IMG/VR virus record: IMGVR_UViG_3300022200_002506
Coordinates: 1-20,000 of that record
Source of the DNA: a virus
Length of the DNA: 20,000 nucleotides
Direction: 5' to 3' (one strand)
Part shown: positions 4,856 through 20,000 of the stretch, piece by piece
Numbering within the stretch: the first letter of the stretch is position 1
How the letters are laid out: each line of letters begins with the position of its first letter
The notes under the pieces: generated by a model
Seen by the model: the letters and a program-made list of their open reading frames with translations, nothing else
Databases searched by the model: none
What the model was told of the DNA's origin: nothing
Program-made: the position numbers and the translations under genes

Positions 4856-5844
4856 CAGATGCGCCTCAAGCTAATCGTGCGCCGGCCGGTTCCGGCTTCC
4901 GGCTTCCCGCCCCTGACCTCTACTTCCCACTCATCAGCGGCAACATACACGCCCGCCGTGAATCGTGCGTACATCCCCTGCCCGATGTTCTGATATTGGC
5001 AGTTGATCACTTCAGAATCAACTACCTGCGTAGTTTTCAGACCATCAGACCCAGCCACATAAGCCGAGTACGTAACGGTCGAAGTGCTGCCCTTCGTAAT
5101 CGTGCCGCCTGTCTCGATCACCACCTTAATCGCGTCGAAGGACACGGTCGGCATCCCCTCTACATCCGCAATCGTGCCGGTCGTGGTAGCGTCCATGCTG
5201 ACAGCGTTCACGATGCCCTTGCCTGCTGCCGTGCTGGTCTCGTTCCAAAGCGGAATCCGCCCATCACGCACCATGTCAAGCAGGCCAGGCTCGTTCGGAT
5301 TGCCGGGGTTGTAGACCATGCCGCGAAGCTGGGCACCGCGCTCCATGTCGTGCGGCTGGATCAGGTACGAACAGGCGAGCGTGGCTGTGGCGCGAATGAT
5401 ACTATCATCGTACTCTCGCAGGCTCTCGGACTGTGCGCCTGTGCCTGTGCGCTTGATGATCGGCTTTGAGACATACGATCTCACGAAGTCGCTTGCGTGT
5501 GCCACAGCCTCGGTCTTGACATCGCTCCACTTGCGCCCAGCCTCAAGCCTGTGCGTGGTCGCCGGGTCGTTCGTTGAGTACAGGTACACGACGTCCGCGT
5601 CTGAGTCGTAGTACCAGTCACCGTCGACGCGCACATCCGGCTGACTTGCCTCAGCATCGCCCAAGTCTTCACCGTCCCGGTACAGCTTCGTGACGTGCCC
5701 GCAGTCGTAGCACGCATAGACCTTCGCCACGCTTGTGACCGCCCAGCCGCCCAGCTCGCGCTTCACATCATAGGAGTCGATCACAGGCTCGACGGCCTGC
5801 AAGTCGGTCGTGATGTTGCAGTAGCTCTCAAAATATGAACTCAT
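4855..5844 (-). CDS. head-tail connector / adaptor protein, gp36-like (inferred)
   Basis: A 329-aa protein beginning MSSYFESYCNITTDLQAVEP. The start codon overlaps the previous stop (ATGA) and has GGAG six bases upstream. The N-terminal YCNITTDLQAVEP and the helical part around residues 110-190 (SDFVRSYVSKPI, ATATLACSYLIQ) resemble Mu gp36-like/DUF1320 adaptor proteins, which dock under the portal. Between them lies an insertion of about 70 residues with CYDCGH and DVVYLYSTND. The C-terminal 130 residues are beta-rich (GGTITKGSTSTVTYSAYVAG) and may form an extra surface domain. The protein is about twice the usual length of this adaptor class. The role is inferred from position after the capsid and before the tail genes. 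Confidence 0.55.
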   Translation of the reverse strand: MSSYFESYCNITTDLQAVEPVIDSYDVKRELGGWAVTSVAKVYACYDCGHVTKLYRDGEDLGDAEASQPDVRVDGDWYYDSDADVVYLYSTNDPATTHRLEAGRKWSDVKTEAVAHASDFVRSYVSKPIIKRTGTGAQSESLREYDDSIIRATATLACSYLIQPHDMERGAQLRGMVYNPGNPNEPGLLDMVRDGRIPLWNETSTAAGKGIVNAVSMDATTTGTIADVEGMPTVSFDAIKVVIETGGTITKGSTSTVTYSAYVAGSDGLKTTQVVDSEVINCQYQNIGQGMYARFTAGVYVAADEWEVEVRGGKPEAGTGRRTISLRRI

Positions 5845-10946: not shown

Positions 10947-12274
10947 TCAGCCCCGCCGAGCAGGTCGGCAAGACTCAGCTCGCCGCGCTGCTGGATGGTC
11001 GGCTCTTCCGCACGCTCGCGGGCAATCGTCTCCAGCCTGTCGCGCAGCATATCGTCCGAGGCATCGGGGTCAATCTCGCGCAGGTAGTCCAGCTTGGAGG
11101 CCAGCCCGTTGCCGTACTCCCACTCCCATCGCTCGCGTTTTTCCGTGTCGCTCATCGGGATATGCGGCTCGACAAAGTTCACGCCGTACTCTGGCGGAAC
11201 CGTCATGCCGACAGACTGGAGGATGATCGAGTCGATCTGGAAGCGCGTGCGCTCGAACATCCGCCAGCGCGCAAAGTCGCTCATGATCGCCTCGGTCAGT
11301 TCGACCTCCAGCAGGCGCTGATGCTCGCCGCTGGTGGCCCTGCCCTCACCAGCCCACTTCAGGCTCAGGTGATGCGCGAAGGCAACCGACTCCAGCTCTG
11401 CCCGCTGCGTTTCGATAAGCTGCCCCAAGTTCGCGCCAGCCGTCGCGAAGCTGAAGGTCTCGCCCGGCTCGAGTGACAGGATTTCCCACGGGTTCAAAAG
11501 CTGCGTGCCGTCGAGCCTTGCGTCTGTCCACGGCTGGCCAGCACCCTGAAGCATGAATGCCTGACGAAGATAGGTGCCGAGCACATTGAAAGCCGTCTGC
11601 GCGTCGAGCACATCCTGCGCCATCGGTCGCCACCAGCTGGAGCCTGCCGCGCCACGGTGGGCGAACACGACAGGAAGCACGCCATAGGGATTCACCAGGT
11701 CGGTGTTGTCTTCCGTCGGGGCCATGATCAGGCCGCTCGAGCTGACACGGAAATGAAGCTGATCCGTCCAGACCGCCCACTCCATATCTTCGCGCTTCGC
11801 CCCGGCATTGTGCAGCGGATAGACCACGCCGATAGGTTCAGGGTTCTGCGGAAGGAACAGAGGCTCGAACTCGATCAGCGGCTCGTGATACAGCTGGCCG
11901 TCTTCTGTCGTGCCGATCAGCAATGCCATTGAGCCGAGCAGGTAGGTCAACCGCTCAAAGTGCGTCATGACCTCATCGAGGTTGTCAAGCCGCTCAAGGT
12001 AGCGCTCGTCTGCTACGCGTTCCGGTGTGTCACGATACACCCCAGCCCGAGCGTCAATGATCTTGCCCGCCACGGCCTGCACACTAAAGGGAACCTGCCG
12101 GTCAATGCCGGGAGGAAAATAGCGCGCCACATCCTGATACAGGTCAACGCCCCGGTACTGATCGACAGCCCGCCAGCGCTGCGCCTGCTTGCGAGACTCG
12201 CTCCCTCCGCCAGTTCCCGCGTAATTCTTGAACGCGCCAGCAATCAGTTCAGGTGTGGGCAGCGCGACGATCAT
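10943..12274 (-). CDS. portal protein
   Basis: A 443-aa protein starting MIVALPTPELIAGAFKNYAG. GGAGG six bases before the ATG overlaps the terminase stop. It has the portal pattern: an N-terminal helical wing, an EPLIEFEPLFLPQNPEPIG strand region, NPYGVLPVVFAHRG, a stem region DAQTAFNVLGTYLRQAFML, and a C-terminal helical crown (RWMFERTRFQID). The dodecameric portal is the DNA entry and exit channel and docks the terminase. Length is normal. The position between large terminase and MuF is canonical. Confidence 0.9.
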   Translation of the reverse strand: MIVALPTPELIAGAFKNYAGTGGGSESRKQAQRWRAVDQYRGVDLYQDVARYFPPGIDRQVPFSVQAVAGKIIDARAGVYRDTPERVADERYLERLDNLDEVMTHFERLTYLLGSMALLIGTTEDGQLYHEPLIEFEPLFLPQNPEPIGVVYPLHNAGAKREDMEWAVWTDQLHFRVSSSGLIMAPTEDNTDLVNPYGVLPVVFAHRGAAGSSWWRPMAQDVLDAQTAFNVLGTYLRQAFMLQGAGQPWTDARLDGTQLLNPWEILSLEPGETFSFATAGANLGQLIETQRAELESVAFAHHLSLKWAGEGRATSGEHQRLLEVELTEAIMSDFARWRMFERTRFQIDSIILQSVGMTVPPEYGVNFVEPHIPMSDTEKRERWEWEYGNGLASKLDYLREIDPDASDDMLRDRLETIARERAEEPTIQQRGELSLADLLGGAE

Positions 12275-12276
12275 GA

Positions 12277-13500
12277 TTAGCCTCCAAAGCGAGAATGACG
12301 GACAACCTGCCGTCTGTGGATCGGATACATATACTCAATGGCGTAACTCGCAGCGTCCAGCGCGTGCGGGTCACGGTTCGCCTTGTCTATCCGGCCATCG
12401 ACCGTGCGCTTCGTGCGCTCGCAGTCATCAATCAGATGCTTGCACTTCGGGTCAATCGTCATGTGGACATTGCCGTCAGCGTCTTGCAGCATCCGGTTCC
12501 AGCTGTTCAGGCGGTCAACCTGTTCCGGAGCCGCCTTCCGGCCATCGACCTTGAATCCGTGATCCGTCAGGATCTGGTAGTCTGACTTCGGGCCGCGCAC
12601 ACTGCGGCTCGCGCCGCTGGGATCGGGAAAGATTCTCGTGACATGTGGATACTTTTCCCGCAGCATCCGCGCCATCATGGCCGTGTGGGCGTTCGTCGGG
12701 ATCACAAGCTCATCATAGTAATGCACACGGTCAGCCGCAAGCTCTCCACCGATCACAGCGACCATCGGCTCGACGTTGAAATCAAGCCCAATCCAAGACT
12801 GCGGGCCGGCCGGCACTGTTTCAGTTTTCAGCACATGACGCGCCCTGTCGAAGTTCCAAGCCGCCCGGTTCCCGCCAGTCTCGAAGCTCGCCTCGTATTC
12901 CTGTGCGTACAGGATCGGATCCATGTCCCTCCGGGCCGCATCGACCTCGGCAGGATCCACGAAAGGCGAGTCTTTTGTTTTATAGATCCAGCTCGCCCAG
13001 TCGCCCTCGTCAGGGTCTTGGCCGAGCCTGAAAAAGTCGTACATCCGATCATATCCGCGCGGGCTGCTGGTGAACAGCGCAGGGCCCTTCGATTGCGTCA
13101 GCATCGGGCGAATCACCAGCTGCCACATTTCCTGCTTGCGCCACAGCGCGAACTCATCCAACCAGACACGCGAAAGCCCGACACCCGGCAAGCCATCCGG
13201 ATTGTCCGCGCCGTGGAGCTGGATCGCGCCACCGTTTGAGAACGTCGCCTTCAGCTCGCTCACTGACAGCTGGATGTCAGGCATCTGGCGTGAAAGCCAG
13301 ACCAACAGCGGCCAAACATTGCGCTTGGCCTGCACGCGGAAAGGGCTGACGTGCCAGCGCAGCTCGCCCGGCTGGATCGGCTCAGAGCACAGCCAGGCAA
13401 AGCCTGCATGAGTCTTGCCCCACCGCCTGCCAGTGACCAGCGCCTTGAACCGCGCAGGGTTACTCAGCAGCGTCCGGATCTGTGGTGTTGACGAAATCAA
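12277..13500 (-). CDS. terL: terminase large subunit
   Basis: A 407-aa DNA-packaging motor. The ATPase has Walker A TGRRWGKT (residues 23-30), Walker B VWLDEF (112-117) with the catalytic Glu, and the coupling motif TSSP (144-147). The RNase H-like nuclease has Asp in GLDFN (238-242), Asp293 in FPDPSG, and DPHALDAASY from residue 377. The start is a TTG at 13500: no ATG or GTG lies between the upstream in-frame TGA and Walker A, and AAGG precedes the TTG. The gene overlaps the small terminase candidate by 41 bases, suggesting translational coupling. Confidence 0.95.
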   Translation of the reverse strand: MISSTPQIRTLLSNPARFKALVTGRRWGKTHAGFAWLCSEPIQPGELRWHVSPFRVQAKRNVWPLLVWLSRQMPDIQLSVSELKATFSNGGAIQLHGADNPDGLPGVGLSRVWLDEFALWRKQEMWQLVIRPMLTQSKGPALFTSSPRGYDRMYDFFRLGQDPDEGDWASWIYKTKDSPFVDPAEVDAARRDMDPILYAQEYEASFETGGNRAAWNFDRARHVLKTETVPAGPQSWIGLDFNVEPMVAVIGGELAADRVHYYDELVIPTNAHTAMMARMLREKYPHVTRIFPDPSGASRSVRGPKSDYQILTDHGFKVDGRKAAPEQVDRLNSWNRMLQDADGNVHMTIDPKCKHLIDDCERTKRTVDGRIDKANRDPHALDAASYAIEYMYPIHRRQVVRHSRFGG

Positions 13501-15084: not shown

Positions 15085-15519
15085 TCAGAACGGCAAGTCT
15101 GCGTTCGTTTCAATGCCCTGTGGTGCTTCCGGCTTCGCAGGCTGCTCAGGATACCGGAGCCTGTCCGCGAGCCGCTCTACGTCGCTGTCAGGGGTATTTA
15201 CTGGCATTCCAGCCTTCGGGGCCAGCAGGAGCAGGCCGTATGCGTTCGCGTTCAGCTTCCAGCTCTCGCGCTTCTGGCCGTCCTTTTCCCATTTGTCGCA
15301 CTGCATCCGGCCCTTGACGGCCACGCCAGCACCTTTGACGAGCGCGGCTTTTTGGTTCTCATACGGCTCCCAAAGCACGACGCGGAACCAGTCAGTCTCC
15401 TTGTCCTTGCCACGGCTGACGGCAACGCTAAACTCGGCGATCTGCTTGCTCCCTGCCTGCCGGAACTCGGCGTCGCTTCCGATGTGTCCTGCGATCCTGA
15501 TTTCATTCTCGTACGGCAT
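15085..15519 (-). CDS. ssb: single-stranded DNA-binding protein
   Basis: A 144-aa SSB. Residues 1-100 form the OB fold: NEIRIAGHIGSDAEFRQAGS, AEFSVAVSRGKDKETDWFRV, VKGRMQCDKWEKDG. A linker of about 40 residues leads to the C-terminal tip DLPF, the short form of the SSB tail (consensus DDDIPF) that recruits replication and repair partners. AGGAGG seven bases before the ATG overlaps the upstream stop. It coats single-stranded DNA during phage replication and recombination and works with the initiator, loader-like protein and YqaJ exonuclease encoded upstream. Confidence 0.95.
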   Translation of the reverse strand: MPYENEIRIAGHIGSDAEFRQAGSKQIAEFSVAVSRGKDKETDWFRVVLWEPYENQKAALVKGAGVAVKGRMQCDKWEKDGQKRESWKLNANAYGLLLLAPKAGMPVNTPDSDVERLADRLRYPEQPAKPEAPQGIETNADLPF

Positions 15520-15530
15520 ATTCCAGCCTC

Positions 15531-16544
15531 CTATTTGATTTTGCGCCGCTTGAACTTCAGGAAGTCAGCGGCCAGCTCGGTGTCTGTGAATACTTGAACG
15601 AGCGCGGTCTCGCGCTGTGCGTCCGGGTCGATTACCGTCACCACGCTGGGGCTGATCTGCTGCGGGATCATGCCGTGCGCCTGCGGATAGTCGTCCGCGA
15701 TCTTGTAGCTGCCGACCTGAATGCAGTGGCTGATCAGGCCGCTTGATGGATCCACCACCTGCTGATAGCCTGAGATGTGCCGATGCCCGGCGAGCAGGAT
15801 GTTGTCACGATAGCCCATCGTCGCGGCTTTACTGATCGAGTGCGCCGTGTTCCACTGGCTGTGGCCCTTGAACTGGTGGTGCGCGCGCATCGTAACCTGG
15901 CGCTTATTCGGGAAGGTTAAGGCCATCCGTGCCTGGTGCGGCTTGTAGATTCCGCTTGCAGACTGCATAAACCAGCGCAGCGGGTCTGTCGCGCCGCTCC
16001 ACATATCATGGTTTCCGCCGATCATGTAGACCATGTGTTCCGACAGCTGTTCAATGAACCACTGGGCCAGCAGGACAGCCTGCCGTGCTGTGGTAGTTTG
16101 GTCGGCAAACAATCGCGCCAGCCTGCCAACCCAATTGTTCGTAGTGTCACCCAGATTCCCACACAAGAGGCCGTCCGTCTGCTTGACGAGCGCCATGTCA
16201 CGCTCAAGCGCTTTCAGGTCGGTGCCGTCGTCGTCAATGTGTGGATCGCCAAAGTGCAGGATGCCTACCGGGCCTTGCAGCTTGATCTGGATGTCAACGG
16301 CCCGCTGCTGATATGCGCCCAGCTTGCGCTCGGTGACCTTCCGCTTGTAGGTCAGGATGTCTTGGATGTCGATCTCGCCGTCTGGCGGCTGCTGGGTCTT
16401 GAAGTCTGGGCTGTACTCTTCCAGTTCTTTCAGCCAGCGTTTGATGGTGGTTCTCGGGATGTCGAGTTCCTTGCTGATTGCCCGGCGTGACATCCCTTTT
16501 TCGATCATGTTTTGCAACAGGTTCAGGTCTTTGTCGCTTCTCAT
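15531..16544 (-). CDS. helix-turn-helix / metallophosphoesterase fusion
   Basis: A 337-aa protein. Residues about 8-42 are a helix-turn-helix (MSRRAISKELDIPRTTIKRW). After a linker, residues 92-290 are a calcineurin-like phosphoesterase with all metal motifs: D100-P-H102, GD at 132-133, GNHD at 177-180, His222/His223, and GHRH at 253-256. Such enzymes cleave phosphodiesters or phosphomonoesters with two metal ions; substrates range from nucleotides to DNA ends (SbcD/Mre11). The DNA-binding head suggests a site-directed DNA role, but this is inference. It lies between the VRR-NUC nuclease and ssb. The start ATG at 16544 has only a G-rich GGGGGG just upstream. Confidence 0.88.
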   Translation of the reverse strand: MRSDKDLNLLQNMIEKGMSRRAISKELDIPRTTIKRWLKELEEYSPDFKTQQPPDGEIDIQDILTYKRKVTERKLGAYQQRAVDIQIKLQGPVGILHFGDPHIDDDGTDLKALERDMALVKQTDGLLCGNLGDTTNNWVGRLARLFADQTTTARQAVLLAQWFIEQLSEHMVYMIGGNHDMWSGATDPLRWFMQSASGIYKPHQARMALTFPNKRQVTMRAHHQFKGHSQWNTAHSISKAATMGYRDNILLAGHRHISGYQQVVDPSSGLISHCIQVGSYKIADDYPQAHGMIPQQISPSVVTVIDPDAQRETALVQVFTDTELAADFLKFKRRKIK

Positions 16545-16563
16545 CTGCCCCCCGTTTTTTCGG

Positions 16564-16591
16564 AATATACGCCGAAGCGCTTACAGATCAA
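16564..16591 (-). promoter_or_regulatory. weak promoter candidate before the phosphoesterase gene
   Basis: On the minus strand TTGATC (16586-16591) and TATATT (16564-16569) lie 16 bases apart: 4/6 and 5/6 consensus matches. The -10 sits in the 36-base gap before the phosphoesterase start, inside a small inverted repeat (TTCGG...CCGAA). It could give the phosphoesterase and ssb an extra promoter. Chance occurrence is possible. Confidence 0.3.
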
Positions 16592-16877
16592 ACACCTTCC
16601 GCCCGATTGCTTCGAGTGCCTCGTCAACACTACGGATTACAGCCACTTGACCCTTCCACTTTTCCGCCCATGCACGCTCGTCATCGGTCAGCTGCTGCTT
16701 TGATGGTGGCTTTTCGCCGTCCTTCACCTCGAAGAGCAGGTTGATTTTGCCGACGCCCACCAGCAGATCAGGACAGCCCCGCCCGACCATGTGCAGCGGC
16801 TGGACGCTTGCGCCAGCCTTTCGCAGGGCTTTGGTGATTTCTGCCTGGTTCGCGTCAACTCTTGCGGCTCTACGCAT
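16581..16877 (-). CDS. VRR-NUC domain nuclease
   Basis: A 98-aa single-domain VRR-NUC protein of the PD-(D/E)XK fold. Visible motifs are the N-terminal Q-x-E (QAEITKAL), RGCPDLLVG with the catalytic Asp37, FEVKDG with Glu50 and Lys52, and KPPSKQQLTDDE with the conserved Gln. Phages commonly encode these small nucleases in replication modules; they are proposed to act as structure-specific, resolvase-like enzymes as multimers. The ATG at 16877 has GAGG six bases upstream and overlaps the previous gene by eight bases; an ATG at 16889 is also in frame. Confidence 0.9.
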   Translation of the reverse strand: MRRAARVDANQAEITKALRKAGASVQPLHMVGRGCPDLLVGVGKINLLFEVKDGEKPPSKQQLTDDERAWAEKWKGQVAVIRSVDEALEAIGRKVFDL

Positions 16878-17079
16878 CGCCATCCTCATCCACTTTTATC
16901 GTGATTAGTGTCGGGGTATACTCTCTTCGAGTGACTTCAACTCCCAAGAAATCTGCCAGGTTTTCCAATGCTTCAAGCTTTGTTCGACCTTGCCCAAAAT
17001 ATGTCCTCTCATCCACCTTGAACGACGCTCTGTAAATACAGTCACGCTCAAGAGCCTCAGTTATCTCCCATCGTCTCAC
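16870..17079 (-). CDS. small unknown protein (GTG start)
   Basis: A 69-aa protein, read as MRRWEITEALERDCIYRASF and ending TPTLITIKVDEDGDA. AGGAGG lies seven bases before the GTG, a strong site that fixes the start within the end of the 55-aa gene upstream. The alternating pattern (YRASFKVDERTYFGQGRTKLE, then EALENLADFLG) resembles a small beta-beta-alpha fold as in HicB-like or double-stranded-RNA-binding-like proteins, but the match is too weak to name. It overlaps the VRR-NUC gene by eight bases, so both are probably translated together. Confidence 0.75.
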   Translation of the reverse strand: MRRWEITEALERDCIYRASFKVDERTYFGQGRTKLEALENLADFLGVEVTRREYTPTLITIKVDEDGDA

Positions 17080-17224
17080 GTTTCACCTCCTGCCTGATCA
17101 CTTTGTCGGTTTTGAGAGCTTCGTAGATGTCGGCGTTCTGTTCCGCGTGGTCTGCTGAGATAGCCTTCAGAAGCCTCCACAAGTGCAGCTTTGCGGCTAT
17201 GATCTCATCCGTTGTCGTTCTCAT
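17057..17224 (-). CDS. small unknown protein, 55 aa
   Basis: A short gene coding for MRTTTDEIIAAKLHLWRLLK, AISADHAEQNADIYEALKTD and an ending RETMGDN. GCGAGGG precedes the ATG at 17224. It fills the space between the 50-aa gene (20-base overlap) and the GTG-start gene (23-base overlap), and its end carries that gene's AGGAGG. The protein looks mostly helical. No family is recognised. The tight fit between neighbours and sensible composition argue that it is real. Confidence 0.6.
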   Translation of the reverse strand: MRTTTDEIIAAKLHLWRLLKAISADHAEQNADIYEALKTDKVIRQEVKRETMGDN

Positions 17225-17357
17225 CAAGCCCTCGCCTGTTCATTTCCTCGCGTATCCAGCTCAGGTAGATTCTCAGCAGCTCGTCCGGCACGCCGATCAG
17301 CATCATGCTGAACTCGTCCTCTGTCAGCGGAGACAGCTCAAAGTTTCTCGGTTTCAT
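17205..17357 (-). CDS. small unknown protein, 50 aa
   Basis: Codes for MKPRNFELSPLTEDEFSMML and ends RGLDENDNG. AGGAGGG six bases before the ATG at 17357 decides the start over an upstream in-frame start at 17399. The protein is acidic and helical with a hydrophobic patch (MMLIGVPDELLRIYLSWI), reminiscent of small protein-interaction modules. Family unknown; its place between replication genes says only that it is an early gene. Confidence 0.7.
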   Translation of the reverse strand: MKPRNFELSPLTEDEFSMMLIGVPDELLRIYLSWIREEMNRRGLDENDNG

Positions 17358-17376
17358 TTCGCCCTCCTGTTGTCGT

Positions 17377-17634
17377 TTATATGATCCGGCGCGACTCAAG
17401 CGCCAGGTTGTTGTTGGTAGGGACGGGTCGGCAAACCCGCCCCAGCGTCAGTGAATCGGCCACGCTCTTGAACATCATCATGGCCTCTCTAACCAGCCTT
17501 GCGCTGGCGGTCACACACCCATAATCCAGCCTTTCGTCATTTTGTTGATGGTTAAGAGGCGGTCGGGTATTGCGCCCGAACAGCGGCCCGTGATATTCCG
17601 CTGCCTGCCCTTTGCAGCCGCCTCGGTTATTCAT
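17377..17634 (-). CDS. unknown protein, 85 aa
   Basis: The ATG at 17634 overlaps the zinc-ribbon gene's stop by eight bases, with GGAAG upstream. It starts MNNRGGCKGQAAEYHGPLFG and is rich in Asn, Arg and Pro; the central part (SARLVREAMMMFKSVADSLT) is helical. No family is recognised. A strong hairpin (17420-17443) lies within it. Coding is likely because it joins its neighbours tightly, but composition is less convincing than for other genes in the window. Confidence 0.55.
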   Translation of the reverse strand: MNNRGGCKGQAAEYHGPLFGRNTRPPLNHQQNDERLDYGCVTASARLVREAMMMFKSVADSLTLGRVCRPVPTNNNLALESRRII

Positions 17635-18100
17635 GTATCAGTCTTCCGCTCATCTCATCGTATGCCATGCCCTCCGGCACGTCCTGATGACGCACCCTGC
17701 CACCATTGCAGGTCGGGCAGCGGTAGGCAACCAGTGTTGCAGTCGGCTTGTCGAGAGCCTGCGTCTGCATCGCCCCGCCCGTGCGCCAGACCGCCACATG
17801 GCGCAGCGTTCGCATATAGTGCCAGCCCTTGCCATCGCAGGTCGGGCAGCTTCCAGACTCTTCAACGCGCTGCTGCTTGCGCTGCTGGTAGGCATGGATG
17901 CGCGCCTGTTCAAATGCGGTCGGCAAGTTCGTTTCCTTGCTATATGCCAGATCCTTCAAGGCTGACCGGATGAACTCGTCCGTTTGATTGTGTCCGATTT
18001 CGCGCCATGCGTAATCCACCAGCGTCTCGTCCAGCTGGCGCGTCCGGCCCTTCAGCGTGAGCGCCTTGCCCAGCGCGATATTAAATTCCTGTCTCGTCAT
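17627..18100 (-). CDS. helical plus zinc-ribbon protein, possible helicase loader
   Basis: A 157-aa protein starting MTRQEFNIALGKALTLKGRT; GGGAGGG precedes the ATG at 18100, which is better than upstream in-frame starts. Residues 1-78 are helical with LDETLVDYAWREIGH and DEFIRSALKDLAYSKETNLP, similar in pattern to the N-terminal domain of phage helicase loaders such as G39P. Two CxxC pairs follow (Cys85/Cys88 in CPTCDGKG, Cys128/Cys131 in CPTCNGG), forming a DnaJ-like zinc ribbon. It comes directly after the replication initiator, the usual place for a loader. No AAA+ motifs are present. The function is inferred and uncertain. Confidence 0.65.
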   Translation of the reverse strand: MTRQEFNIALGKALTLKGRTRQLDETLVDYAWREIGHNQTDEFIRSALKDLAYSKETNLPTAFEQARIHAYQQRKQQRVEESGSCPTCDGKGWHYMRTLRHVAVWRTGGAMQTQALDKPTATLVAYRCPTCNGGRVRHQDVPEGMAYDEMSGRLIHE

Positions 18101-18110
18101 GATCCCTCCC

Positions 18111-18821
18111 TTAGAACGGCAGCGGGCCGTTGTCTCGTTCCGGCAGCTGTGTCCCTTCGTCCTGCCATCCGCCAGCATTCAGCCAGGTCGCCGGATATGG
18201 GATGTATTGCCCGTTCTCTCGGTGCCATTCAGGGTCTTTAGCCTGCTTGTTGACGGCCTCGATGATCTGCTCTTTGAGCTGCTTGCCGGGCCTCAGCTTT
18301 TTCCATGCCTTGAGTGCTGCTTCCTTCGAGCGCTTTTTGGGATATGCGCTCCAGAATTCGTCGAACCCTTCCGCGCTTTTCGCCTGCGAAAGCGCAAGAG
18401 AGTCTCCTCTTTCCTCTTTCCTCTTTCCTCTTTCCTCATTCAGAGCGTATTGGTACGCACCTTGGTTAGAAGCGCTTTCTACCAAGGTTATACTCGCTTC
18501 GCTCCTTGGTGGTAATTCGCTTGCTGCCTCGTTTGGGTGTGGGCGCTGGTGTTTCGTGAAGTTGTTGATTTCAAAGTACTTCACCCCATCAACCTCATAA
18601 TGGCAGAGGAACCCGGCCTTGGTCAAGGCAGAGAGCATTTTGGGAATATCGTAGTCTTCTGCTGGGAAGATCGCCATTTTGATCTTGATCGGTCGATCTT
18701 CAAAACGCCCTTCGCGGTCAGCAAAACACCACAGCCCGATGAATAACAGCCTGCAGGCAGGATCAATCTGCACAAGGTTCTCGTTCAGAAAGAATCCCGG
18801 CTTGATGTTTCGCGCGCGCAT
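18111..18821 (-). CDS. phage replication initiator (O-like / replisome organizer)
   Basis: A 236-aa protein. Residues 1-95 form a winged-helix domain typical of phage initiators (PACRLLFIGLWCFADREGRF, EDRPIKIKMAIFPAEDYDIP, VKYFEINNFTKHQRPHPN). A charged linker (NEERGKRKEERGDS, 128-141) is encoded by heptanucleotide repeats. The C-terminal domain has FDEFWSAYPKKRSKEAALKA and QYIPYPATWLNAGGWQDE, a pattern common at the end of phage replication proteins. Such proteins bind the phage origin and recruit loader and helicase. The last residues, GPLPF, look like an SSB tail tip. GAGGT precedes the ATG and overlaps the upstream stop. Confidence 0.88.
   Translation of the reverse strand: MRARNIKPGFFLNENLVQIDPACRLLFIGLWCFADREGRFEDRPIKIKMAIFPAEDYDIPKMLSALTKAGFLCHYEVDGVKYFEINNFTKHQRPHPNEAASELPPRSEASITLVESASNQGAYQYALNEERGKRKEERGDSLALSQAKSAEGFDEFWSAYPKKRSKEAALKAWKKLRPGKQLKEQIIEAVNKQAKDPEWHRENGQYIPYPATWLNAGGWQDEGTQLPERDNGPLPF
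18405..18437 (-). repeat. heptanucleotide tandem repeat in the initiator linker
   Basis: The plus strand carries TCCTCTT four times in perfect tandem plus a partial fifth copy; the coding strand is purine-only GAGGAAA units. A 7-bp unit is not a multiple of three, so gain or loss of one unit would shift the reading frame. The repeat lies within the initiator gene, where phages such as lambda place origin iterons. Confidence 0.9.
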
Positions 18822-18823
18822 GG

Positions 18824-19021
18824 CTACCTCAAGCTCTTGGCACGAATGCCCATTTTCGCGGCGTATTCCAGCACATCCAGATCAAGGTAGCGGCCTCGCT
18901 CGTTGCGCTGCGGGAATTCTGGATCGTTTGCCCGCCAGCGGTAAAAGGTCGGAGAACTGCAGCCAAGCATAGCCATTGCTTCAGTCGCGCTCATCCAGGT
19001 TCCTGCGTATTCGTCAGACAT
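18824..19021 (-). CDS. AlpA/excisionase-like DNA-binding protein
   Basis: A 65-aa protein. Residues 9-45 hold a MerR-type helix-turn-helix with wing: WMSATEAMAMLGCSSPTFYR, WRANDPEFPQRNERGRYLD, then LDVLEYAAKMG. This is the pattern of AlpA/excisionase-type regulators (HTH followed by 'W.....FP....G....Y/W'). AAGGAAAAG lies before the ATG. It could be an excisionase, a transcription switch or an origin-region regulator. It stands first before the replication initiator and behind an inverted repeat. No integrase is visible in the window, so an excision role is not proven. Confidence 0.85.
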   Translation of the reverse strand: MSDEYAGTWMSATEAMAMLGCSSPTFYRWRANDPEFPQRNERGRYLDLDVLEYAAKMGIRAKSLR

Positions 19022-19038
19022 TGCTTTTCCTTTCTTTG

Positions 19039-19055
19039 TTGCACCATTGTAGCAA
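19039..19055. promoter_or_regulatory. 17-bp imperfect palindrome, operator candidate
   Basis: TTGCACCA-T-TGTAGCAA: half-sites TTGCACCA and TTGCTACA agree at six of eight positions around a central T. It sits in the 57-base gap before the AlpA-like gene and overlaps a minus-strand TACAAT, a 5/6 match to a -10 box. Size and place fit a binding site for a dimeric regulator. I found no good -35. Confidence 0.35.
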
Positions 19056-19078
19056 TTGATGAGCGATAAAAGAAGCCA

Positions 19079-19288
19079 TCAGGCAATTTCCCGCGAAAAA
19101 ACTTCCTTGACCAGCGGCCCAACGCCGATAGCCTTTGCGGCATGGATGCGGACGCTGATCAGGTCGTCCAGGTAGCAGCGCACGATATTGCGCGACACCC
19201 GCTCGGCTTCGCTCATCGTGTCGCAAAAAATGCGCTCGTGGCTTTTCTTGGGCTCGCAGTTCCGCCATTTGATCTCGATGTATGCCAT
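19079..19288 (-). CDS. small unknown protein, 69 aa
   Basis: Starts MAYIEIKWRNCEPKKSHERI at an ATG that overlaps the upstream stop (TAATG), which favours it over an in-frame start at 19381. The protein has a beta-helix-beta look (AYIEIKWRN, SEAERVSRNIVRCYLDDL, VGPLVKEVFSR) and two cysteines. No family is recognised. It is the last of three small overlapping genes after the exonuclease. Confidence 0.7.
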   Translation of the reverse strand: MAYIEIKWRNCEPKKSHERIFCDTMSEAERVSRNIVRCYLDDLISVRIHAAKAIGVGPLVKEVFSREIA

Positions 19289-19521
19289 TACCACTCTCCC
19301 GTGTATTCTGGCGCGGGATGGAATATCCGCGTCTTGTTCCCTTCGCGCTCCATGATCCGGCTCCCGTCTGGGCCGATCCATTCGAGCCTCGCAAGCTGCA
19401 TCTCAAAGGCGCGGTTCAGGATCCGATATAGCTTAAGCGCTTGCTCTTCCGTCAGCCCGCCTTCACTGTGGCGTGCCCCGCCCTCCGAGTATGTCCATCT
19501 TATCCGGTGATCAGTTTGCAT
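19288..19521 (-). CDS. small unknown protein, 77 aa
   Basis: Starts MQTDHRIRWTYSEGGARHSE, overlapping the upstream gene by 11 bases; the ATG at 19521 is preferred to an in-frame start at 19554. A helix (LTEEQALKLYRILNRAFEMQ) is flanked by strands (ARLEWIGPDGSRIM). Ends HPAPEYTGEW. Family unknown; translation is likely coupled with both neighbours. Confidence 0.7.
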   Translation of the reverse strand: MQTDHRIRWTYSEGGARHSEGGLTEEQALKLYRILNRAFEMQLARLEWIGPDGSRIMEREGNKTRIFHPAPEYTGEW

Positions 19522-19819
19522 AGCGGATGTCCTCCAGCAGCCTCGCAAGCGCACGCGCCCAGCGGGCCTCCTGCTCCTGCTTTTGCATCATCCGGCTCTG
19601 CCATGCCTTGATCCGGCCTGAGTCTTCACCAGCCTGCCATGCCGTGTAAATCATTGCAGCTTCGCGCTCGGTCGAATATGAAAGCCCTTCGATCAGCCCG
19701 ATTCGCTCCCACTTGATCAGCTTCGCCCCTGCAAGCTGCCCATGTCGGGCAGCCTGCACTTCGATACCGTGCTCGGTGTTCGCGAGCCTGGTGTCTGGGT
19801 TGATTTTGTACGCTCTCAT
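19511..19819 (-). CDS. small unknown protein, 102 aa
   Basis: Starts MRAYKINPDTRLANTEHGIE; the ATG overlaps the exonuclease stop (ATGA). The N-terminal half is mixed (AGAKLIKWERIGLIEGLSYS) and the C-terminal half is one long charged helix (KAWQSRMMQKQEQEARWARA, LARLLEDIRY). No family is recognised. Coupling to the exonuclease gene suggests a recombination or replication accessory role, which is inference only. Confidence 0.7.
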   Translation of the reverse strand: MRAYKINPDTRLANTEHGIEVQAARHGQLAGAKLIKWERIGLIEGLSYSTEREAAMIYTAWQAGEDSGRIKAWQSRMMQKQEQEARWARALARLLEDIRYAN

Positions 19820-20000
19820 GCTATGCTCCTGATTTCCTGCTCATGCTTGTCGATCTCGTCGCAGAATGTGGGGAGATTATCGGCAAGCGCCTGCTGAACT
19901 TTAGCGTCCGGCAAGACTTCAATGATCAGCGGCGGCAGGCCGGGAAAGTAGGACATGAAATACCACTTGGGTGCGCCCGTCACGAACAAGCAGCCTTGCA
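19816..20000 (-). CDS. YqaJ-like exonuclease/recombinase, C-terminal end (partial)
   Basis: The frame is open to the right edge and codes for the last 61 residues: QGCLFVTGAPKWYFMSYFPG, then LPPLIIEVLPDAKVQQALAD and a helical end finishing EIRSIA. The pattern 'QxQ..L.VTG..W..F.SY.P..P.....V..D' is the C-terminal part of YqaJ/lambda-exonuclease-type enzymes; the Gln in QG matches the conserved Q of that family. These exonucleases resect DNA ends for single-strand annealing recombination. The catalytic core lies outside the window. Confidence 0.8.
   Translation of the reverse strand, partial: QGCLFVTGAPKWYFMSYFPGLPPLIIEVLPDAKVQQALADNLPTFCDEIDKHEQEIRSIA

Follow-up and report, generated by a model that had tools for sequence, protein, structure and literature searches.

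Phased 22-bp repeats and a heptamer array in the linker of a phage initiator gene: a putative in-gene replication origin

Introduction

Replication origins located within the gene of their own initiator are already known from phages and plasmids. In phage lambda, iterons in gene O are followed by a 40-bp opening region (PMC5043065), and six iterons have been described in the O gene of Stx phages (PMC7466680). In mycobacteriophages with RepA, an origin in repA or upstream of it has been suspected by analogy with lambda (PMC7157519). Plasmids with an oriV inside the initiator gene include repABC p42d, pAD1, pSK1 and others (PMC3155836). In the RepA_N-type initiator of pSK41, the winged-helix N-terminal domain binds four boxes located centrally in its own rep gene; the origin-coding part serves as a linker, and the C-terminal domain is thought to be host-specific and to meet primase (PMC5703833). 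Plasmid Rep proteins also bind one strand of repeated 13-mers in the opening region (PMC4081077). Heptameric repeats are likewise found in bacterial genomes, such as GGGAATC in Xanthomonas and GGGGA(T/C)T in Nostoc (PMC4692102).

To our knowledge, the origins of most phages are unmapped. Here, we analyze the surroundings of a heptanucleotide repeat in a 20-kb virus record (IMGVR_UViG_3300022200_002506), which makes up the whole entry and is called the window in the following. A first-pass annotation had placed this repeat inside a replication initiator gene. Sequence comparison with relatives suggests, with a probability of roughly 0.75, that the linker of this gene is the replication origin of the phage.

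Methods

A DNA-level search of a phage collection with the initiator gene gave no matches, and relatives were therefore collected by protein search. Four protein-similarity scans of viral contigs provided 5, 80, 80 and 80 loci, the last three being the best 80 of at least 591, at least 569 and at least 570 matches, and four phage records were added. The protein-selected set comprised 247 loci, 243 of them usable (N-terminal domain and full linker present) and 144 non-redundant. Left out were 8 of 276 N-domain ORFs, in which the linker ran past the contig end or contained N, and N-domain hits shorter than 70 residues, which were not counted. As tandem statistic, the 240 bp that follow the N-domain were scored for their best tandem repeat with a period of 5-24, and scores of at least 12 were regarded as strong. 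The AlphaFold model of the initiator was built from 41 sequences.

Results

The initiator gene and its domains

The gene carrying the repeat lies on the minus strand and is predicted to encode two domains joined by a linker.

18111..18821, minus strand: replication initiator gene, 236 aa, ATG at 18821, matching PHROG replication initiation protein families
18492..18821, minus strand: N-terminal domain, residues 1-110, resembling winged-helix DNA-binding domains in Foldseek and VIA-align (mean pLDDT per 10 residues 81-98)
18396..18491, minus strand: linker, residues 111-142 (pLDDT below 50 at 113-139)
18162..18395, minus strand: C-terminal domain, residues 143-220 (mean pLDDT per 10 residues 91-97 for 151-220)

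The evidence that the gene encodes a replication initiator, as an in-gene origin implies, consists of PHROG family profiles. The best match was phrog_16167 (replication initiation protein, E 3.1e-49), and that of phrog_270 covers residues 8-229; phrog_9474 (replication initiation protein) and phrog_9327 (primosomal protein) match residues 92-223 and 128-225. The window initiator matched no Pfam family at E <= 0.1, and none of 41 members of its family matched any Pfam family, including the RepA_N profile, at E <= 0.01. An NCBIfam search with the initiator returned nothing near the cut-off, and a PDB sequence search returned zinc-finger noise only.

The linker position of the repeat, as annotated in the first pass, is borne out by the AlphaFold model, in which a disordered stretch (residues 113-139) separates two confidently modelled regions (residues 1-110 and 150-220, approximately). 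The best Foldseek match of the N-terminal domain was 4pt7_B ('Structure of initiator', E 0.024, prob 0.99), which we take to be a RepA_N-type initiator; the search gave no match at E <= 0.001. By VIA-align, the N-domain was aligned with 4pql (Z 8.1, rmsd 7.4, 100 aligned), 4pt7 (Z 7.4, rmsd 3.1, 85 aligned), 5kbj ('Rep-DNA complex', Z 7.2, rmsd 8.3, 97 aligned), 4pta (Z 7.0, rmsd 2.8, 82 aligned) and the N-domain of DnaD, 2v79 (Z 6.5, rmsd 3.0, 83 aligned). The matched initiator entries are presumably RepA-type proteins of staphylococcal plasmids. Since their Z values of 7.0-8.1 lie in a range also reached by many unrelated winged helices, the modelled likeness to plasmid initiator winged helices is suggestive only. 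The C-terminal domain probably contacts helicase, loader or primase.

Among nearby minus-strand genes with profile matches are the following.

15085-15519, minus strand: single-strand DNA-binding protein
15531-16544, minus strand: DNA repair exonuclease-like protein
16581-16889, minus strand: resolvase-like protein

The exonuclease-like phosphoesterase carries an additional N-terminal helix-turn-helix. In several relatives, the gene directly following the initiator encodes a helicase loader or helicase, whereas no helicase loader was recognized by profile search in the next downstream gene of the window (17627-18097).

The heptamer array

18403-18437, minus strand: heptamer array, (TCCTCTT)4.7 as read on the plus strand, (GAGGAAA)n in the coding sense; candidate module for unwinding or strand-specific loading

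Positions 18405-18437 read TCCTCTT four times and then TCCTC, giving 33 bp of perfect 7-nt periodicity, just as the first-pass annotation had described it (four perfect copies and one partial). The surrounding pure pyrimidine tract (18403-18437) extends to 35 bp, the runner-up in the window being 14 bp long. Tandem Repeats Finder scored the array at 67 (18405-18441) and the eight other rows of the window at 40 or less. The linker has a tandem score of 26.5 (read from the identical contig L001), and scores of at least 12 occurred in 0 of 720 dinucleotide shuffles of the 144 family linkers. The array starts 77 bp past the end of the N-domain profile, the median for 7/8-nt-type arrays of the relatives being 105 bp. 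G+C accounts for 3/7 of the unit and for 51% of the 500-bp segment 18251-18750, as compared with 53-60% in neighbouring segments. The heptamers encode residues 129-139 (EERGKRKEERG) of the minus-strand ORF 18111-18821, and the protein remains unbroken because (GAGGAAA)n is free of stops in every frame and is located in a flexible linker.

The first-pass annotation had also claimed that a change by one copy would disrupt the C-terminal domain. This holds, as the gain or loss of one or two units shifts the frame and truncates the product at 173-196 aa; three extra units keep the frame and give 243 aa. Slippage of the heptamers could thus turn the C-terminal domain on and off, as in a contingency locus, and arrays of this kind can slip, as indicated by CTGATTC arrays with similar flanks in a related phage group, which range from 36 to 64 nt in 7-nt steps (plus one of 22 nt at a contig end). 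However, among 449 close pairs of relatives with both domains recognized, the linkers differed by 0 nt (439 pairs) or 3 nt (10 pairs, by eye resembling a shift of the profile end), never by 7 or 14 nt. Because only 125 of 276 N-domain ORFs have an in-frame match to the C-domain profile, this comparison covers part of the family, and relatives only. A C-domain in another frame was seen in 1 of the 276, a record with ambiguous bases. In addition, a second assembly of this virus (IMGVR_UViG_3300025687_004399) is identical to the window across 15114-20000 and has the same number of heptamer copies, and an initiator would be an unlikely target for switching. Altogether, we consider such a switch, which the earlier annotation had offered as one of two readings, highly improbable. 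Its suggestion of a triplex finds no support as intramolecular H-DNA, since the heptamer unit lacks mirror symmetry and the longest perfect mirror arm measures 6 bp.

Phased 22-bp repeats beside the array

Three 22-bp repeats (18445-18510), overlooked in the first pass, precede the heptamers in the coding sense.

18489..18510, minus strand: putative iteron 1, ACCAAGGAGCGAAGCGAGTATA, coding for the end of the N-domain, exact 22-bp CCWWGG spacing
18467..18488, minus strand: putative iteron 2, ACCTTGGTAGAAAGCGCTTCTA, 22-bp CCWWGG spacing
18445..18466, minus strand: putative iteron 3, ACCAAGGTGCGTACCAATACGC, 22-bp CCWWGG spacing

The phased repeats thus lie within the gene between its domains, with repeats 2 and 3 in the linker and repeat 1 in the last codons of the N-domain. 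Of the six CCWWGG sites in the 20 kb, three follow each other here in exact 22-bp steps. Repeats 2 and 3 form an inverted repeat with 8-bp arms (18459-18488). The start of repeat 3, CTTCTAACCA, was also present in the relatives L149 and L150 (3 of 148 linkers including this virus) and in 0 of 3216 background windows. Pairs of CCWWGG at 22 bp numbered eight in the 144 linkers, two of them from this virus, at an expectation of about 0.09.

The alternative reading of the first-pass annotation, an origin within the initiator gene as in lambda O, is therefore retained in part: comparison with relatives speaks for the in-gene origin, and the likelier, still putative, initiator-binding iterons are the three 22-bp repeats rather than the heptamers, which look like a second, downstream module. 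The GC skew, proposed as a check, shows no change at this site in the window and gave a mixed picture in three complete relatives. The distance between the initiator and the minimum of the detrended skew is 3.6 kb in JBD44, 3.1 kb in EV13 and 19 kb in Fyn8; the raw minimum falls inside the initiator gene of JBD44, near the start of the record, and outside the initiator in EV13 and Fyn8.

Repeats in the linkers of the initiator family

Tandem scores of at least 12 were reached by 97 of the 144 linkers, while the remaining 47 scored lower. Elsewhere in these loci, 36 of 3094 windows scored as high, and no shuffle (0 of 720) did so. The linker was the top-scoring window of its locus in 111 of 144 cases, where 6.6 were expected. 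An earlier set, in which loci had been chosen partly by repeat and partly by protein, gave 25/49 versus 13/1154 and was replaced by the protein-chosen set. Across the 144 linkers, autocorrelation was raised at 6-8, 11, 14, 15, 21 and 22 nt, with peaks at 7, 11, 15, 21 and 22, of which 15 is the lowest, which is explained by two kinds of units. The first recurring module consists of motifs such as CAAGCACCGGA and CCWWGG at distances of 11 or 22 bp, i.e. in helical phase. The second comprises arrays in steps of 7 or 8 nt (CTGATTC, CCTTTAA, CCTCTTT), usually downstream of the first. The window holds both, 22-bp repeats and then heptamers.

Among 21 period-7 arrays with scores of at least 10, the window included, the coding strand was pyrimidine in 19, mixed in one and purine in one, namely that of the window; for periods of 7, 8, 14, 15 and 21, the corresponding numbers were 86 pyrimidine, 5 mixed and 8 purine. 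The array of the window, with purines on the coding strand, is hence on the strand opposite to that of most relatives. Five actinophage relatives share this purine-rich orientation. In the actinophage initiators L422, L423, L424, L425 and L426, the purine-rich linker arrays are made of other units, e.g. (GGAAG)n, (GGAACAGA)n and (GGAACAGG)n.

Seven phage records picked by organism (JBD44, Gsput1, Hum25, PFR1, WilliamBoone, Purky and one other phage) all had an array in the initiator linker, with scores of 12-31; their background included the linker itself, so that they provide no clean control. In JBD44, two ACAACCAAGG motifs were seen by eye 22 bp apart, and the four phage records added to the relatives contain CTGATTC-type repeats.

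Arrays outside the initiator reading frame

In some relatives, the array is not, or not entirely, translated with the initiator. The initiator ORF of L252 and L259 ends after the N-domain and the CTGATTC array lies past the stop codon, and in L241 the array itself supplies the stop codon. These three loci come from a search with the CTGATTC pattern, which selected for the presence of an array and not for its adjacency to an initiator. An N-domain ORF was present in 27 of the 49 loci found with this pattern, and in 36 of the 49 the arrays share similar flanks. One member of the latter group, L214, the only locus inspected gene by gene, has its (CTGATTC)n array (5722-5771) in an intergenic region, some 80 bp beyond a CI-like repressor gene; its initiator, 2.3 kb away on the same contig (also L178), has a short repeat-free linker and is followed by a DnaC-like loader gene. 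Besides L214, (CTGATTC)5-9 with similar flanks was recorded in L190, L215, L217-L220, L222-L232, L234, L236, L237, L239, L240, L242, L243, L246-L251, L253, L255, L257, L260 and L261. The viral contig L244 carries five separate heptamer arrays within 600 bp (11733-12325), four of them GAATCAG.

A pair of CCWWGG motifs at 11 bp was found within 60 bp upstream of 31 of 36 intergenic-type arrays (10 of 12 distinct flanks) versus 1 of 5220 background windows; the motif stems from the window and its relatives, and the test of 11/22-bp spacing was chosen post hoc, after the flanks had been seen. The exact sequence AAGCACC, frequent in linkers of relatives, preceded 0 of 35 intergenic-type arrays.

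These locations, after a stop codon in two relatives and intergenic in another phage group, suggest that the linker array behaves as a DNA element and not only as a protein linker. The linker of the window is charged, and its peptide ERGKRKEERG might itself matter, for example in DNA binding, with the DNA repeat as a by-product. Yet the arrays of relatives translate as LIPDSLIPDS, SFLFPLSS or GKGREGKG, occur on both strands and in two frames (186 and 107 TGATTC units, with 4 in the would-be stop frame), and are in some cases not translated with the initiator at all, so that a purely protein-level role appears very remote.

The same heptamer in other genomes

A 21-base seed of the heptamer was present in seven viral contigs: L010 (this virus), the related L006, L009 and L012, and three others. 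In L006 (identical to L262), L009 and L012, the heptamer of the window occupies the corresponding linker of an initiator homologue, on the other strand. In L011 (10763-10783), the heptamer is part of an ORF judged by eye to be similar to a TOPRIM-type primase. When plasmids and phages were searched with the repeat plus its flanks, the matches were confined to the repeat or to short stretches, in most cases lacking gene annotation. Bacterial genomes contained the seed in at least 117 stretches and, judged by reading of translations, also inside other ORFs. The 117 bacterial stretches listed (L014-L130) contain 110 GAGGAAA arrays of at least 24 nt, some within long ORFs, in e.g. Prevotellaceae, Methylomicrobium, Myroides, Planktothricoides and Anaerolineales.

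As the unit is common in bacteria, it proves nothing by itself, and the array could be a generic simple-sequence repeat that expanded without function in a permissive linker. The wide distribution of the AAAGAGG heptamer fits this explanation, as do the reported over-representation of heptameric repeats in bacteria (PMC4692102) and a linker that is disordered in the AlphaFold model and holds a repeat free of stops in all frames. Against it, two of about five independent seed places in viral contigs, after merging, are linkers of related initiators. It also leaves unexplained the position bias over 144 family members with differing units, the arrays outside the reading frame and the adjoining 22-bp repeats. 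We therefore regard a functionless repeat as unlikely, though a more serious competitor than the two above.

Discussion

The layout observed in the window is that of an initiator-family protein with two domains, in whose gene three CCWWGG motifs at 22 bp are followed by a heptamer array, and similar phased motifs and arrays of 7/8-nt units recur at this position in relatives, in some of them outside the coding frame. For an origin in this linker, the following course of events can be envisaged. The N-terminal winged-helix domain would bind the phased repeats as iterons, thereby bending and straining the DNA. The adjacent heptamer array would then melt, or one of its strands would be held by the initiator or a partner, and the C-terminal domain would subsequently recruit helicase, loader or primase. 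For the heptamers as an opening or loading module, we see about even odds. Several observations weigh against an origin at this site: the array has the opposite strand orientation to most relatives, its heptamer is widespread in bacteria, the GC skew, though not decisive, does not turn there, the gene after the initiator is not recognizable as a helicase loader, AAGCACC is missing ahead of the intergenic-type arrays, 47 of the 144 linkers score below 12, and the fold matches are weak.

More tentatively, and with rather more doubt than confidence, the elements described here might represent a portable two-part origin used by a large family of phage initiators, seen here in phages of Pseudomonas, Acinetobacter, Gordonia, Arthrobacter, Propionibacterium and Mycobacterium besides those of unknown hosts. 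Helically phased iterons of the CCWWGG or CAAGCACC type would be combined with a strand-polar 7/8-nt array as single-strand loading tract. Such a tract would be comparable to DnaA-trios or to the repeated 13-mers of which plasmid Rep proteins bind one strand (PMC4081077). The element would move between three places, namely the initiator linker, the region behind the stop codon and an intergenic position next to the repressor; its units would turn over with the spacing kept, and the window would be a case with the polar module reversed.

If the linker is indeed the origin, that of many phages with such an initiator could be read straight from the sequence, and the non-helical 7/8-nt periodicity beside helically phased iterons would offer a handle on DNA opening by initiators. 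One stretch of DNA with two jobs would furthermore limit the evolution of the protein linker. Outside the gene, as in the CTGATTC phage group, the array is a pure heptamer with varying copy number. In the literature searched, subscription papers aside, no title or abstract described a family-wide element, a 7/8-nt module or its three locations.

Compared with known systems, the heptamers of Xanthomonas and Nostoc resemble the array in their 7-nt units and variable copy number. Unlike it, they are over-represented in intergenic regions of the host, and the accessible part of the source states no link to replication genes. The plasmids p42d (repABC), pAD1 and pSK1 have, as proposed for the window, the origin inside the coding sequence of the initiator, but their initiators are different ones and the origin of p42d is associated with a large A+T region. 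The origins of mycobacteriophage RepA are similarly suspected, though not pinned down, within or upstream of the initiator gene. RepA_N plasmid initiators such as that of pSK41 have their origin inside rep, and the N-domain of the window weakly resembles theirs. In contrast, the family of the window belongs to phages and not to plasmids, lacks Pfam matches in all 41 members, and has phased repeats that are then joined by 7/8-nt arrays. The origin of phage lambda is built from inverted iterons of 19 bp and an A+T-rich stretch of 40 bp, in place of which the window has a heptamer array. Common to both, putatively in the case of the window, are an origin within the initiator gene and an order of iterons followed by an opening region, and in several relatives of the window, as in lambda, the next gene encodes a helicase loader or helicase.
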